Shown: positions 35,931-40,666 of the stretch, in pieces
Layout: each line of letters starts with the position of its first letter
Numbering within the stretch: the first letter of the stretch is position 1
Assembly: GCF_004364775.1 (NCBI RefSeq)
Contig: NZ_SOAL01000017.1
Coordinates: 1-64,000, forward strand
Length of the DNA: 64,000 bases
Origin: Comamonas sp. JUb58
GTDB taxonomy: Bacteria; Pseudomonadota; Gammaproteobacteria; Burkholderiales; Burkholderiaceae_C
Direction: 5' to 3'
Translations under genes and position numbers: made by a program
The notes under the pieces: model-generated
Told to the model about the DNA's origin: nothing
Database searches by the model: none
The model's input: the letters and a program-made list of their open reading frames with translations, nothing else

Positions 35931-36473
35931 GTGCCGGAAAACACCCCAGGAACTGCCACCGCGTCCGAGCGCGTCGTCAAGAAGTACCCCAACCGCCGTC
36001 TGTACGACACCCAGACCTCTGCCTACATCACCCTGGCCGAGGTCAAGGCCCTGGTCATGCAAAACGAGCCTATCGTCGTCAAGGACGCCAAGACCGGCGA
36101 GGACCTGACGCGCAGCATTCTGCTCCAGATCATTCTGGATGAGGAGGCGGGCGGCGCACCGATGTTCACCGAGGCCATGCTGGTCAACATCATCCGCTTC
36201 TACGGCCATGCGATGCAGGGCTTCATGGGCTCCTACCTGGAGCGCAATGTGCAGCTGTTCACGGAGATGCAAGGCCGCTTTGCCGACCAGATGAAGGGTG
36301 CCACGCCCGAGATGTGGCGCAACTTCCTGGGCATGCCGATGCCCGGCGTGCCAGGCATGCCCGATGCGGGCAACTACCAGGCCCAGTCGCAGCAGTTCTT
36401 CCAGCAAATGCAGGAACAGATGCAAAAGCAGACGGAGCAGATGCTGACGGCTTTTGGGATCAAGCGGCCTTGA
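35931..36473 (+). CDS. phaR: polyhydroxyalkanoate synthesis repressor PhaR
   Basis: 180 aa. N-terminal PHB/PHA accumulation DNA-binding domain VVKKYPNRRLYDTQTSAYITLAEVKALV..., with MFTEAMLVNIIRFYG (second domain), and a Gln/Met-rich helical C-terminus. It represses phasin genes and binds PHB granules. The start is GTG with AGGAG 8 nt upstream. In related genomes phaR commonly lies next to rimO; here a two-gene cassette intervenes. Confidence 0.95.
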   Translation: MPENTPGTATASERVVKKYPNRRLYDTQTSAYITLAEVKALVMQNEPIVVKDAKTGEDLTRSILLQIILDEEAGGAPMFTEAMLVNIIRFYGHAMQGFMGSYLERNVQLFTEMQGRFADQMKGATPEMWRNFLGMPMPGVPGMPDAGNYQAQSQQFFQQMQEQMQKQTEQMLTAFGIKRP

Positions 36474-36597
36474 TGCAGGGAATGGCTTGGTGCCCGCTGC
36501 AGGGGCCAGGCCATCTTGCGCGTTCTTGGCCTGTTGGTCTGCATGCCGCGCCCTGGCTGGGCTGACGCCAGACGGCAACGCAGCATGCGGCCATGTC

Positions 36598-36626
36598 TTG
36601 AACGCGGCGACTGCACGTGCTATAAA
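36598..36626 (+). promoter_or_regulatory. candidate sigma70 promoter of the RNA-repair cassette
   Basis: TTGAAC (36598-36603), exact 17-bp spacer, TATAAA (36621-36626). The predicted start of transcription is near 36633, leaving a leader of about 290 nt before the ligase. Confidence 0.5.
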
Positions 36627-36900
36627 CCCAGCTCTTTTCATCTTCCTGCCTTTTTCGGAGCCCCTCATGTCCCGCCTGTTCGTCACCTGCTAATCGCCGA
36701 CGACTGCATTTGCAGCCTCGTGCGGCGCAAGTCTGCGCCACAGCTGGCTGCGGTACTGGCTCCGAGCTTCCTACGCCTGCCATGAGGCCGCGGGAGCGCT
36801 GAATCCCCCGCTTCCCCTGCGCGACGACCTCTTTCCTTTTCTGGGCAAGAGCGGTCGACCTGCGCCTCACGTTCGTTGGCTTTCCCTGTCCTGCTGGACA

Positions 36901-36916
36901 GCGAGACGCTTCTCGC
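36901..36916 (+). repeat. hairpin in front of the RNA ligase start
   Basis: GCGAGA-CGCT-TCTCGC, 6-bp stem with 4-nt loop, ending 10 nt before the ATG at 36927. It could hide or present the weak ribosome site. Confidence 0.5.
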
Positions 36917-36926
36917 TGCAACGAAC

Positions 36927-37877
36927 ATGAATCCCCACACCCTTTCGATATTCAAATACCCGCGCACGCCGCACCTGGAAGGATCGCGCCTGCAAGCGGG
37001 CGACGATGCCAGTGACCAGGTGCCCCTCAAAGCCCTGGCTGGCCAACACGTCGTCATTGAGGAAAAACTCGATGGCGCCAACGCCGGCATTTCCTTTAGC
37101 GGCGCCGGCGAGCAGCTGCTGCAATCCCGAGGCCACTACCTGGTGGGCGGTGGCAGCGAGCGCCAGTTCAATCTCTTCAAAGTCTGGGCCGCTGCCCACG
37201 AAGCGGCCTTGCTCGAACGCTTGGAGGACCGCTTTGTCGTCTATGGGGAGTGGACCTATGCCAAGCACTCGGTTTTCTACGACCAGTTGCCGCACCACTT
37301 CCATGAGTTCGACATGTTGGACCGGGAGACGGGTCAATTTCTATCGACCCCGCGCCGCCATGCCTTGCTGCAGGGCTCACCGCTGCTGTCCGTGCCGGTG
37401 CTGTATGAAGGTCCGATGCCTACGGACCCTGCCTTGCTGTGGGCGCTGGTGCAGCCCTCCCTGGCCAAGAGCCGCGCCTGGCGCCAGTCGTTTGACCTTG
37501 TCGTCCAACGAGAGGGCCTACCGCCCCAGCTGTGCTGGCAACAGACGAATAACTCGGACCTGGCAGAAGGCCTGTACCTGAAGGTAGAAGCGGATGGCCA
37601 GGTGGTGGCGCGCTACAAGTTCGTCCGGCACGACTTTCTCCAGACGATTCTGGACAGCGGCTCACACCACAGCCAGCGGCCCATGATTGCCAATGGCCTG
37701 GCGCCAGGCGTGGACCTCTATGCGCCGCAGCCTTCGGTCCGCTGGGAGGACCTGTCCTTGCGAACCATTCGCTCGCTGGATGCATTGAAAGCTTTGGCAA
37801 GAGACAAGCGGGCTGCCAGGTCGAATGGCGCTGGCCGAGCATGGGGAAGAAGCTTTTCCGGAATGGATTGTGTATGA
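36927..37877 (+). CDS. ATP-dependent RNA ligase (Rnl2-like nucleotidyltransferase)
   Basis: 316 aa. Covalent nucleotidyltransferase motifs in order: motif I VVIEEKLDGANAG (Lys47 as adenylation site), motif III VVYGEW (106-109 YGEW), motif IV AEGLYLK (214-219) and motif V-like ARYKFVR (Lys231). This is the RNA-ligase/Rnl2 fold; no OB domain typical of DNA ligases is seen. It seals 3'-OH/5'-phosphate ends (family knowledge). The start at 36927 is preferred to TTG at 36876. Its TGA overlaps the next ATG by 4 bp, so it is translationally coupled to the end-healing enzyme. Confidence 0.87.
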   Translation: MNPHTLSIFKYPRTPHLEGSRLQAGDDASDQVPLKALAGQHVVIEEKLDGANAGISFSGAGEQLLQSRGHYLVGGGSERQFNLFKVWAAAHEAALLERLEDRFVVYGEWTYAKHSVFYDQLPHHFHEFDMLDRETGQFLSTPRRHALLQGSPLLSVPVLYEGPMPTDPALLWALVQPSLAKSRAWRQSFDLVVQREGLPPQLCWQQTNNSDLAEGLYLKVEADGQVVARYKFVRHDFLQTILDSGSHHSQRPMIANGLAPGVDLYAPQPSVRWEDLSLRTIRSLDALKALARDKRAARSNGAGRAWGRSFSGMDCV

Positions 37878-39013
37878 ACTGGTCAACGATTGCGGGCCTG
37901 GTGCCTGCGCCGGGCGCCGCCCCGGATTTTGAGGCCTGTCTTGCGGCCTTCCCCGTGCTGGAGCGGGCCAAGACGACGGTGCAGGACCCCCGTTTCCATG
38001 CTGAAGGGGATGTCTGGACGCATACCCAAATGGTGGTGCGCGAGCTGCTGGCGCTGCCGGACTACCTGCAGGCCAGCCCGCCTGACCGCACGGTTTTGTT
38101 CCTCGCGGCTTTGCTGCACGATGTCGCAAAATACCGGACCACAGTCATCGACCCACAGACCGGGGCCATCGGCCAGCCTGGCCATTCCCGCAAAGGAGCG
38201 GTGGAGGCCCGTGTGTTGCTCTGGGATGCTGGTGCGCCACTGGACCTGCGGGAAGCGGTCTGCCGCCTGATTGCCGTGCACCAAGTGCCATTTTTCGCGT
38301 TGGCCGGCTCTCGTTCTGGCAAGACGCCGGAGCACATTGTGCGAGAGGGATCCTGGCAGGTGAATCTGGTCCACTTGGCGGCTCTGGCCGAAGCGGATAT
38401 GCGCGGACGTGTCTGTGTGGACCAGCAGGCGGTGCTGGACAACATCGAGCTCTTTCGGGAACTGGCGCGGGAAGAGCGTTGCTACGGGAGTCCTCGGCAC
38501 TTTGCGGATGCCCACACCAGGTTGAGCTACTTCCGGGGCGCGGACGTCCACCCGGACTATGCGCTCTTTCAGGAACCTGGATCGCGCGTGACCGTGATGT
38601 GTGGCCTGCCCGCGTCGGGAAAGGACAGCTGGCTGGCGCAGCACCGGCGCGGCTTGCCCGTGGTGTCTTTTGACGATGCAAGAGAAGCGCTGGACCTGAA
38701 GCATGGCGAGAACGAGGGCGCTGCTGCGCACTTTGCCCATGACAAGGCCCGGGAACTGCTCCGCAAGAAGGCGCCTTTTGTCTGGAGCGCCACGCATCTG
38801 AGTCTGCAGATGCGAACGCGCACGCTCGATCTGCTGTTCGCCTATGGTGCCGAAGTGGAGTTGGTCTACCTGGAGCAACCCCGTGCCGAGTTGCTGCGGC
38901 GTAACAGCCGCCGGGACTCGACCCTGTCCAACAAGGCGCTGCTGTCGCTGCTGAACCGCTGGGAGCTGCCCACCGAGACGGAAGCCCATGCGCTGCGCAT
39001 TGAGCAACCCTGA
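37874..39013 (+). CDS. HD-domain phosphoesterase / polynucleotide 5'-kinase fusion (HD-Pnk)
   Basis: 379 aa, two domains. Residues 1-215 are an HD phosphohydrolase: VWTHTQMVV (His50), ALLHDVAKY (His82-Asp83), GHSRKGAV (His104) and VHQVPFF (His136). Residues 235-379 are a P-loop polynucleotide kinase: GLPASGKDSW (244-252), VVSFDDAREAL (Asp at 267) and the lid Arg cluster EQPRAELLRRNSRRD. The layout matches Runella slithyformis HD-Pnk, reported as 2',3'-phosphoesterase plus 5'-OH kinase. It heals RNA ends that the upstream ligase can seal. ATGA overlap with the ligase. A homologue to the T4 Pnkp/Rnl pair is not implied. Confidence 0.87.
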   Translation: MNWSTIAGLVPAPGAAPDFEACLAAFPVLERAKTTVQDPRFHAEGDVWTHTQMVVRELLALPDYLQASPPDRTVLFLAALLHDVAKYRTTVIDPQTGAIGQPGHSRKGAVEARVLLWDAGAPLDLREAVCRLIAVHQVPFFALAGSRSGKTPEHIVREGSWQVNLVHLAALAEADMRGRVCVDQQAVLDNIELFRELAREERCYGSPRHFADAHTRLSYFRGADVHPDYALFQEPGSRVTVMCGLPASGKDSWLAQHRRGLPVVSFDDAREALDLKHGENEGAAAHFAHDKARELLRKKAPFVWSATHLSLQMRTRTLDLLFAYGAEVELVYLEQPRAELLRRNSRRDSTLSNKALLSLLNRWELPTETEAHALRIEQP

Positions 39014-39253
39014 GGCGAAGGGGGCGTTGGCGGCCTTGGCAGTCGCCGCAACACAAACCGGCCCGCTGTGGACAGCTTGTGTTGTTTTCTGCGCTGGCGC
39101 TGAAGCCTTCCCCACGCTTTTCCGCCTATCTCCCACCCGAATGCAGGTCCTCCAGGCCCCCGCCTGCGGGTCTATACCCCAGGGGCGGAGCCTGTCAGGG
39201 CGCCTGCTTTAAAATACCGCCCAGATTAGTTGCCAGGTTCCCCTGCAAGAAAA

Positions 39254-40666
39254 ATGAATACCGATACCCACGCTGCCACTGCGACGCTCGACGCCAACCG
39301 AACCCCCAAGGTGGGGTTCGTCAGTTTGGGCTGCCCCAAAGCCCTTACCGACAGCGAGCTGATCCTGACGCAGTTGAGCGCCGAGGGGTACCAGACCTCC
39401 AAGACTTTTGAAGGTGCCGATCTGGTGATCGTCAACACCTGCGGCTTTATTGACGATGCCGTGCGCGAAAGCCTGGACACGATTGGCGAGGCCTTGGCCG
39501 AGAACGGCAAGGTGATCGTGACCGGTTGCCTGGGTGCCAAGACGGGTGCCGACGGCGGCAATATGGTCAAGCAGATGCACCCCAGCGTGCTGGCGGTGAC
39601 GGGCCCCCACGCCACGCAAGAGGTGATGGACGCGGTCCACACCAACCTGCCCAAGCCGCATGACCCCTTCATCGACCTGGTGCCTGGCAGCTTTGGCGAG
39701 GCGGGCATCAAGCTCACGCCCAAGCACTATGCCTATTTGAAGATTTCCGAAGGCTGCAACCACCGCTGCACCTTCTGCATCATCCCCTCGATGCGCGGTG
39801 ACCTGGTCAGCCGCCCGATTGGTGATGTGCTCAAGGAAGCCAAGGCGCTGTTTGCCGGCGGCGTCAAGGAGCTGCTGGTGATCAGCCAGGACACCTCCGC
39901 CTATGGCGTGGATGTGAAATACCGCACCGGTTTCTGGGACGGCAAGCCGGTGAAGACGCGCATGCTGGAGCTGGTGGAAGCGCTGGGCGAGCTGGCCAAG
40001 CCGCACGGCGCCTGGGTGCGCCTGCACTATGTCTACCCCTACCCGACGGTGGATGCGATTTTGCCGCTGATGGCCCAAGGCCTGGTGCTGCCTTACCTGG
40101 ATGTGCCCTTGCAGCACAGCCACCCCGATGTGCTCAAGCGCATGAAGCGACCGGCCAGCGGCGAGCGCAATCTGGAGCGCATCCGCGAATGGCGTGCGAT
40201 CTGCCCCGAGTTGGTGATCCGTTCGACCTTTATTGCCGGTTTCCCTGGCGAGACCGAAGAAGAGTTCGAGCACCTGCTGGACTTTATCCGCGAGGCCGAG
40301 ATTGATCGCGCAGGCTGCTTTGCCTATAGCCCCGTGGAAGGCGCTACCGCCAATGAGCTGCCCGGCATGCTGCCACCCGAAGTGCGCGAGGCGCGCCGTG
40401 CCCGCTTTATGGAAGTGGCCGAAGAGGTCTCCGCCAAGCGCCTGGAGCGCCGTGTGGGCCAGACCATGCAGGTGCTGGTCGACAAGGCCATCGGCCTGGG
40501 CAAGAAGGGCGGCATTGCCCGTACCTATGCCGATGCGCCCGAGATCGACGGTGTCGTGCACCTGCTGCCGCCCGAGAAGCTCAGCAAGACCTACAAGGTG
40601 GGCGAGCTGATCAAGGTGCGCATTGTGCGCAGCCAGGGCCATGACCTGGTGGGCGTGCCGGTTTAA
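39254..40666 (+). CDS. rimO: ribosomal protein S12 methylthiotransferase RimO
   Basis: 470 aa. Radical-SAM enzyme that methylthiolates Asp88/89 of S12. UPF0004 N-terminal domain ([33 protein letters not shown]: three cluster Cys), radical-SAM motif [18 protein letters not shown] (CxxxCxxC), and a C-terminal TRAM domain. The start at 39254 (MNTDTH) is chosen over 39230. It lies 240 bp after the HD-Pnk gene. Confidence 0.97.

Follow-up and report, generated by a model that had tools for sequence, protein, structure and literature searches.

This study concerns a window of 64,000 nucleotides (nt), positions 1 to 64,000 of contig NZ_SOAL01000017.1 of Comamonas sp. JUb58, in which two adjacent genes at 36927..39013 are predicted to encode an ATP-type RNA ligase and a protein combining an HD phosphoesterase with a P-loop 5'-OH polynucleotide kinase (HD-Pnk). 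We propose that the two genes form a self-contained, horizontally moving RNA-repair cassette, and that their expression may be gated by a leader with a built-in sensor of translation failure. Based on sequence comparisons and folding models, we put the probability of this joint reading at about 0.5. The enzyme pair alone would be an ordinary addition to known enzymes; the unexpected part is the conserved leader upstream of 36927. The leader was absent from the first-pass annotation of this DNA and is easily overlooked, because it is located outside the genes and window positions 36450-39300 matched none of the Rfam families, that of tRNA included.

The ligase and HD-Pnk as one unit

The ligase (P0001, 316 amino acids) is encoded at 36927..37877, from an ATG at 36927 to a TGA at 37875-37877, and the HD-Pnk (P0002, 379 amino acids) at 37874..39013, its ATG at 37874 overlapping the ligase TGA (ATGA). 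These and all features given below are on the + strand. The two genes, their overlap and their extent as first annotated were all borne out by the frames read. An alternative ligase start, TTG at 36876, was ruled out because the starts of relatives align with ATG 36927, and chance reading frames were ruled out because both proteins are conserved across genera.

The ligase matches Pfam RNA_ligase PF09414 with an E value of 2.4e-35 and 122.7 bits, against a cut-off of 27. The motifs named in the first-pass description of an Rnl2-like ligase are as stated there: Lys47 lies in EEKLDGAN, YGEW at 106-109 and EGLYLK at 214-219. An alignment of 21 ligase sequences shows no variation at Lys47, Asp49, Gly50, Glu108, Glu214, Lys219 and Lys231, and we take these residues to belong to motif I (the KxDG lysine) and motifs III, IV and V. 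The predicted fold is the nucleotidyltransferase fold of RNA ligases, which took the top ranks in structure comparison, while DNA ligases share the fold at lower Z (9.1-11.6). As regards a C-terminal domain specific to Rnl2, the alignments of the best 16 matches, with the full-length protein as query, stop at residues 238-260. Sequence searches of solved structures with each single protein, and also with a ligase profile, gave no match.

The HD-Pnk contains an HD domain (PF01966, 4.8e-6) and an AAA_33 domain (PF13671, 2.6e-17). Alignments of 17 and 23 sequences show no variation at His50, His82-Asp83, His104, His136, Asp175, Gly244, Gly249, Lys250 and Asp267-Asp268, in agreement with the earlier assignment of a fused HD phosphoesterase and kinase with the first five of these residues in the HD part; Asp175 is here counted with them among the metal-binding His/Asp of the HD domain. 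In structure comparison the HD domain resembles the HD part of a tRNA-processing nucleotidyltransferase, and the best Foldseek match of the kinase domain is the Clostridium thermocellum polynucleotide kinase 4jt2 (E 3.2e-6). By profile, L-seryl-tRNA(Sec) kinase comes first (2.9e-6), followed by T4 Pnk (3.3e-4) and C. thermocellum Pnk (2.7e-3), so that polynucleotide kinases are not singled out by sequence alone. The first-pass annotation had made its reading depend on the catalytic Lys and Asp residues, and the predicted catalytic residues are intact in both the ligase and the HD-Pnk.

In the proposed pathway the HD domain would remove a 2',3'-cyclic or 3' phosphate, the kinase would phosphorylate the 5'-OH, and the ligase would then seal the healed ends. 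Together the three activities would undo cleavage by a metal-independent ribonuclease; the cleaved RNA would most likely be a tRNA or another RNA of translation. Judged from domains and residues, the pair very probably heals and seals RNA. The earlier claim of a complete end-healing and sealing pathway is favoured by the predicted catalytic residues, the domains and the linkage of the genes, and as a whole we regard it as partly supported. The inducing signal, the substrate and the physiological role given here for the cassette are what we infer.

The ligase and HD-Pnk form one unit which occurs at varied genome positions in beta- and gammaproteobacteria. Within the genus the kinase gene was found in 24 of 53 genomes and a close ligase in the same 24 and in G027, where the contig ends inside the ligase; two further genomes had only a ligase of 35-40 % identity. 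In a sample of 299 genomes of the family, 16 had the kinase gene and the same 16 a close ligase, and 11 had only a distant ligase. Four of the 16 positives belong to Comamonas itself and are shared with the genus set, and a spurious match in G297 (18.8 bits, residues 210-256) was excluded. In a class-wide draw 5 of 369 genomes matched, two of the same genus and three distant, and the cassette is therefore patchy in its distribution. The carriers include Pectobacterium, Achromobacter, Bordetella, Roseateles, Massilia, Janthinobacterium and Ralstonia, as well as Burkholderia, Cupriavidus, Undibacterium, Acidovorax, Delftia, Comamonas and Pseudomonas.

Co-occurrence and synteny, which the first-pass annotation had proposed as a check, gave a consistent result: the ligase is nearly always just upstream of the kinase gene. 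It is directly upstream on the same strand in 30/30 loci with long flanks, and upstream in 81 of the 82 loci of the collection scans, for which 80 of 166 relatives were retained; the exception, L198, starts at a contig end. The 112 loci overlap partly (the same genome under G and L names). The upstream ligase is a distant one (28-34 %) in L146, L147, L188, L190 and L199, and in L147 its match ends 1.75 kb upstream. No third family was found at a fixed place around the loci. When the ligase, the kinase and antisense frames over both genes were left out, the largest single-linkage clusters, of 15, 14, 14 and 13 loci, were scattered in position. A regulator or nuclease gene linked to the pair was ruled out, as no such cluster had a constant position.

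The pair matched no defence system in PADLOC, and a phage gene was rejected as an explanation, with one match, at 28.9 %, among 50,697 phage records. Two IMG/VR loci matched, L198 and L199; the sequence of L198 is host flank, adjacent to an element that is joined to rimO. A distribution complementary to that of RtcB was also ruled out; the trend is rather reversed, RtcB being present in 21/24 kinase-positive and 10/29 kinase-negative genomes of the genus (counted by hand). The genome of the window has two RtcB matches elsewhere. In Undibacterium L145 about 500 base pairs (bp) separate the ligase and HD-Pnk genes, and on the Variovorax plasmid L208 a frame of 114 amino acids with an HNH-like motif stands between them.

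The leader upstream of the ligase gene

The leader contains a short upstream open reading frame (uORF) at 36667..36693, which has 8 codons (MSRLFVTC*) and GGAG ahead of it. Strand A, GCCGACGA, at 36696..36703, starts 2 nt past the uORF stop codon and is complementary to strand D, TCGTTGGC, at 36873..36880. Strand S, CAACGAAC, at 36919..36926, abuts the ligase start codon, and its exact complement, GTTCGTTG, is found at 36871-36878, overlapping D. A comparison by DNA similarity showed a single copy of the leader in the genome.

A ligase start could be placed in 102 of the 112 loci (all except L124, L146, L147, L154, L164, L165, L188, L190, L198 and L199). A uORF that has a ribosome site and stops 0-5 nt short of the strand A motif was found in 97 of these 102 leaders under a rule allowing 7 to 9 codons: it has 8 codons in 72 and 9 in 25. 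The same combination turned up in 2 of 4350 shuffled stretches. The five leaders outside the rule are G052, in which the frame is present and A is changed, L183, in which TGG replaces the stop, G047 and L174, in which no start was seen, and G192, with a 9-codon frame and no A motif. The uORF peptides differ, e.g. MSRLFVTC in the window, MPRFFAITC in Janthinobacterium, MPYASQHA in Pseudomonas and MSAIRHYA in Achromobacter, and the start codon is GTG in 62 and ATG in 25 of 87 distinct leaders. Because both amino acids and start codons vary, it is the length and place of the uORF that are kept and not its peptide. One starvation codon was ruled out, since codon 3 is CGC in 45/87 and otherwise TGC, GCC, TAC and others.

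The distance from the uORF to the ligase ranges from 111 to 384 nt, and most of the leaders listed have the core of strand D 33-66 nt upstream of the ligase start. Among the 87 distinct leaders an ACGA anchor was present in 84 and its partner too in 80, the leaders missing from the pair table being G338, G205, G179, G168, G008, L120 and L122. GCCGACGAC or ACCGACGAC serves as strand A in 42 of these 80, in several families. The best helix formed from A had a mean score of 21.4, compared to 15.3 with shuffled partners (87 leaders), and in 54/87 no more than 3 of 60 shuffles did as well; it is the A:D helix in 67/87. In the 64 leaders with an A other than the AACGAC type, the window's included, at least 8 contiguous pairs were formed in 95 %, compared to 2.9 % of shuffles, and 90 % of the cells outside the anchor were paired, compared to 44 %. 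The shuffled control repeats the same anchor and the same choice of best partner as the pair table.

Compensatory changes were seen at pair 1 (A-U for G-C in Pseudomonas, G332 and G067) and at pair 3 (U-A for C-G in Janthinobacterium). A similar change at pair 4 (A-U for G-C) in relatives of Comamonas testosteroni was dropped because the A:D pairing of that group is at the level of shuffles. Judged from the sequences, A:D complementarity with compensatory changes is a feature of most leaders, not of all. The 20 leaders with an AACGAC-type A share another block past the uORF, CGACTTCGTCACACGC ... GCGTGTGCGCTGCGGTG, which forms a local hairpin and replaces the supported A:D pairing. D and the bases after it can further pair with the ribosome site and start region of the ligase, in the window GTTCGTTG with CAACGAAC and in Pseudomonas GGTTTTTCC with GGAGAAACC. 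This pairing is above the shuffle mean in 60/80 leaders, and L160 has a matching double change in it.

The uORF leader stays with the enzymes across beta- and gammaproteobacteria, even beside a distant ligase. We consider it highly probable that it is a real regulatory element. In the Cupriavidus group (L188, L190) a distant ligase (31-32 %) stands with the same type of leader and an HD-Pnk of 60-62 % identity, as would be expected after a ligase exchange that left the leader, recognised here by eye, in place. Upstream of the genes of the Variovorax plasmid L208 no uORF-A-D leader was seen by eye.

Ribosome position and the proposed control of the ligase start

The cost of opening the ligase start was calculated with ViennaRNA while a 33-nt ribosome footprint was placed along the leader, for 36 representatives hand-picked from the 87 distinct leaders. 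The cost was approximately 2 kcal/mol lower with the A site at codons 1-5 and slightly higher with the ribosome at the stop. The difference between stop and codon 3 averaged 2.95 kcal/mol, compared to 0.26 with the middle of the leader shuffled; it was above 0.3 in 30/36, below -0.3 in 3/36 and neutral in 3/36. In a similar comparison of all 87 leaders 66 were in favour and 14 against. The effect was present also in several AACGAC-type leaders (G002, G031, G281, G070), and it is therefore not dependent on A:D alone.

These results suggest the following switch. In the OFF state a ribosome reaching the uORF stop would cover A, so that D and its flank could fold back on the ligase start and close it. 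In the ON state a ribosome held early in the uORF, e.g. when an intact tRNA is lacking, would leave A free for D and would also mask upstream RNA that otherwise closes the start, and the ligase and HD-Pnk would be made. It is possible, at somewhat less than even odds, that early ribosome arrest turns the leader on in the way the folding models suggest. More tentative is the view that the leader acts as a damage detector in cis, detecting translation failure caused by cut tRNA and releasing the mending enzymes without a regulatory protein.

Several observations weigh against the proposed switch or against RNA as its object. The difference runs in the opposite direction in Pectobacterium L118 and L121 and in G338, and the effect of the mask in the window itself, 2.44 kcal/mol, was matched in 1 of 12 shuffles. 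A ribosome at the stop, compared to free RNA, closes the start by a median of only 0.33 kcal/mol (n=87), the cost being up in 44/87 and down in 14/87. The Wilcoxon p of 3e-7 is too small, as related sequences are not independent. In unmasked RNA the best helix has a mean probability of 0.25, near 0 in the window and in Pseudomonas, so that the A:D helix would need to arise co-transcriptionally or with assistance. In 20/87 leaders (counted by hand) the best-scoring helix of A is not A:D. Where A is of the AACGAC type (20 leaders, from Comamonas, Delftia, Acidovorax and kin), no A:D signal was found: pairing outside the anchor is 49 %, compared to 50 % in shuffles, and at least 8 pairs occur in 5 %, compared to 10 %. 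In the pair table four of the nine pairs are fixed by the anchor, D was chosen as the best partner, and pair 9 fails in 36/80 leaders. A hairpin of the uORF with A is not above shuffles (10.8 compared to 11.0), and a classical four-strand attenuator, which contains this hairpin, was ruled out on that ground. With the helix not predicted in the free RNA of most leaders and no uORF:A hairpin, the mechanism is a proposal. The varying uORF codons mean that no one tRNA is singled out. Concerning the enzymes, the related operon of Deinococcus radiodurans has been studied as DNA repair, and its ligase joined no DNA tested (PMC1997131); this ligase, DRB0100, is also said to be without DNA or RNA ligase activity (PMC1978522).

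The leader could also act by another ribosome-linked route, either by transcription attenuation or by re-initiation at the ligase of ribosomes that end the uORF, brought there by the A:D fold. We consider this unlikely, although certain features fit it. A T run is often found past D (GTCGTCGGCTTTTCC in Achromobacter and Ralstonia, and similar in Pseudomonas), and armZ of Pseudomonas aeruginosa reportedly uses a transcription terminator (PMC13041342). The A motif lies 0-5 nt past the uORF stop, and A:D pairing would consequently put that stop next to the ligase start. Transcription attenuation is at odds with Janthinobacterium L148, which has no T run, and with the scan of the window's leader, inside which no + strand terminator was listed; the A-D loop is moreover long for an intrinsic terminator, given the uORF-to-ligase distances.

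An improbable alternative is that the leader is an operator for self-control: the A-D domain would imitate a broken or intact tRNA, bind the ligase or HD-Pnk and block their translation, and the uORF would merely keep the RNA open. That the letters of strand A are kept, and not pairing alone, would agree with protein binding, as would the poor conservation of the uORF amino acids, the retention of the leader in Cupriavidus loci with a divergent ligase and the failure of A:D in 20 leaders. Protein binding would not need a uORF, whereas nothing in the leaders is more constant than the uORF, its length and its place ahead of A, and the Rfam search of 36450-39300 matched no family, tRNA included. 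That the pair repairs DNA ends, or DNA and RNA, and not mainly RNA is very doubtful: DRB0098, the HD-Pnk of D. radiodurans, phosphorylates DNA 5'-OH ends and its operon is irradiation-induced (PMC1997131), and DNA ligases have the same fold at the lower Z given above, but the ligase is far over the RNA_ligase cut-off with RNA ligases first by structure, a translation-reading leader would seem to fit RNA damage better, and disruption of DRB0100 left radiation resistance unchanged (PMC1978522).

The phaR-rimO site and known systems

In the window the cassette stands between phaR (35931..36473) and rimO (39254..40666). A promoter-like TTGAAC, 17 nt, TATAAA at 36598..36626 was seen by eye; a strict promoter scan gave nothing in the leader region, this candidate included, and it is therefore a weak call. 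A possible terminator at 39049..39088, a CAACACAA/TTGTGTTG stem followed by TTTT, was also seen by eye and is not listed by a terminator scan restricted to loops of 3-8.

The first-pass annotation had suspected an insertion, and the spacing of phaR and rimO in relatives agrees with it. The two matches are 74-287 bp apart in 16/53 genomes of the genus, and 2764-2783 bp apart in G000, G040 and G021, the three of 53 that have the pair there (phaR was found in 50/53 and rimO in 51/53; gaps computed by hand). The closest species without the pair have the site empty: the short form occurs in G019, G029, G018 and G017, the species next nearest by phaR, and the interval is empty also in G015, whose phaR is 99 % identical but which has a further element inside rimO. 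Similarity between the window and G015 resumes at 39156. A dedicated site was ruled out, as the other 21 kinase-positive genomes of the genus carry the operon elsewhere. The cassette was either gained in an ancestor of the three species or lost in others, and transfer is favoured because cassette positions are scattered.

G015 and the IMG/VR locus L198 leave the window sequence at the same base in rimO, after 39336, and in G015 (L078) a second piece of rimO begins at 39332 (39332-39336 being rimO codons 27-28). Judged by these junctions, a mobile element may use the 5' end of rimO as its attachment site. The empty interval of G019 (L079) and of G015 contains a T-arm-like stretch, GGGTTCAATTCCC, and a variant of it, which by eye looks like the remnant of a tRNA or tmRNA 3' end. 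Elsewhere the phaR-rimO interval holds a short-chain-dehydrogenase-like frame (G036, L085) or a chemotaxis-receptor-like one (G039, L087), both named by eye.

As to known systems, the HD-Pnk of Runella slithyformis from the Shuman group reportedly has the same domain order. T4 Pnkp has another 3' phosphatase domain than HD-Pnk, and so has bacterial Pnkp1-Rnl-Hen1, which additionally includes Hen1. T4 Pnkp with Rnl1/Rnl2 and bacterial Pnkp1-Rnl-Hen1 resemble the present pair in healing RNA and then sealing it (PMC4411300), and in jumbo phages HD-like phosphatases are used along with RNA ligases (PMC7824862).

The first-pass annotation knew of no studied operon of a ligase and HD-Pnk in Comamonadaceae; the pairing itself is not new, the D. 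radiodurans operon DRB0100-DRB0099-DRB0098 being a studied relative. There, too, an ATP-type ligase lies upstream of an N-terminal HD domain fused to a polynucleotide kinase in one putative operon (PMC1997131), DRB0098 phosphorylates 5'-OH ends and DRB0100 takes AMP (PMC1997131, PMC11833690, PMC1978522). The HD-Pnk of this locus (L205) is 31.9 % identical to that of the window over 92 %. The D. radiodurans operon differs in having a macro-domain/PARG gene between the two, where the window genes overlap by ATGA, and in being irradiation-induced and plasmid-borne with a ligase of only 210 amino acids. No uORF-A-D leader was seen by eye in the 330 nt upstream of it.

For the leader the nearest likeness is armZ (PA5471, RtcB family)-PA5470 of P. 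aeruginosa, in which a gene of an RNA ligase family has a short uORF, PA5471.1, approximately 250 bp upstream. Expression of armZ rises with translation trouble, as ribosomes stall on the 13-codon leader (PMC3516279, PMC13041342), and leader codons 3 and 4 are involved when the tRNA nucleotidyltransferase (CCA-adding enzyme) is missing (PMC13041342). The differences are the other ligase family, the 13 codons compared to 8-9 and the use of transcription attenuation; moreover, the role known for ArmZ is anti-repression of an efflux pump and not repair. Leader-peptide attenuators in general share the short frame with a ribosome site upstream of a regulated gene (97/102 by sequence criteria). As to mutually exclusive structures switched by ribosome position, 30/36 leaders go in the predicted direction and 3 against, A:D is beyond chance in 64 and not in 20, and uORF:A is at shuffle level.

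The Rtc operon (RtcA, RtcB, RtcR) is likewise an inducible bacterial RNA repair system tied to broken tRNA; it differs in its RtcB chemistry and in induction, as in Salmonella, by a protein, RtcR, which binds tRNA fragments (PMC7790460). No regulator gene occurs at a fixed place beside the ligase/HD-Pnk loci, in contrast to Rtc. A literature search, mainly outside subscription journals, found no description of the present leader and no union of a ligase/HD-Pnk cassette with such a leader. Each half thus has precedent; what would be new, going by that search, is that both occur together in one mobile and conserved cassette of two genes, whose leader and ligase class are not those of the precedents. 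How bacteria time the mending of cut RNA has been worked out in few cases; the main one is Rtc, in which tRNA fragments are sensed by a protein. If the proposed control is true, the enzymes should repair the same damage that arrests ribosomes early in the uORF, which would give a handle on the substrate, and a repair operon leader reading translation directly would be a second, simpler logic beside that of Rtc.

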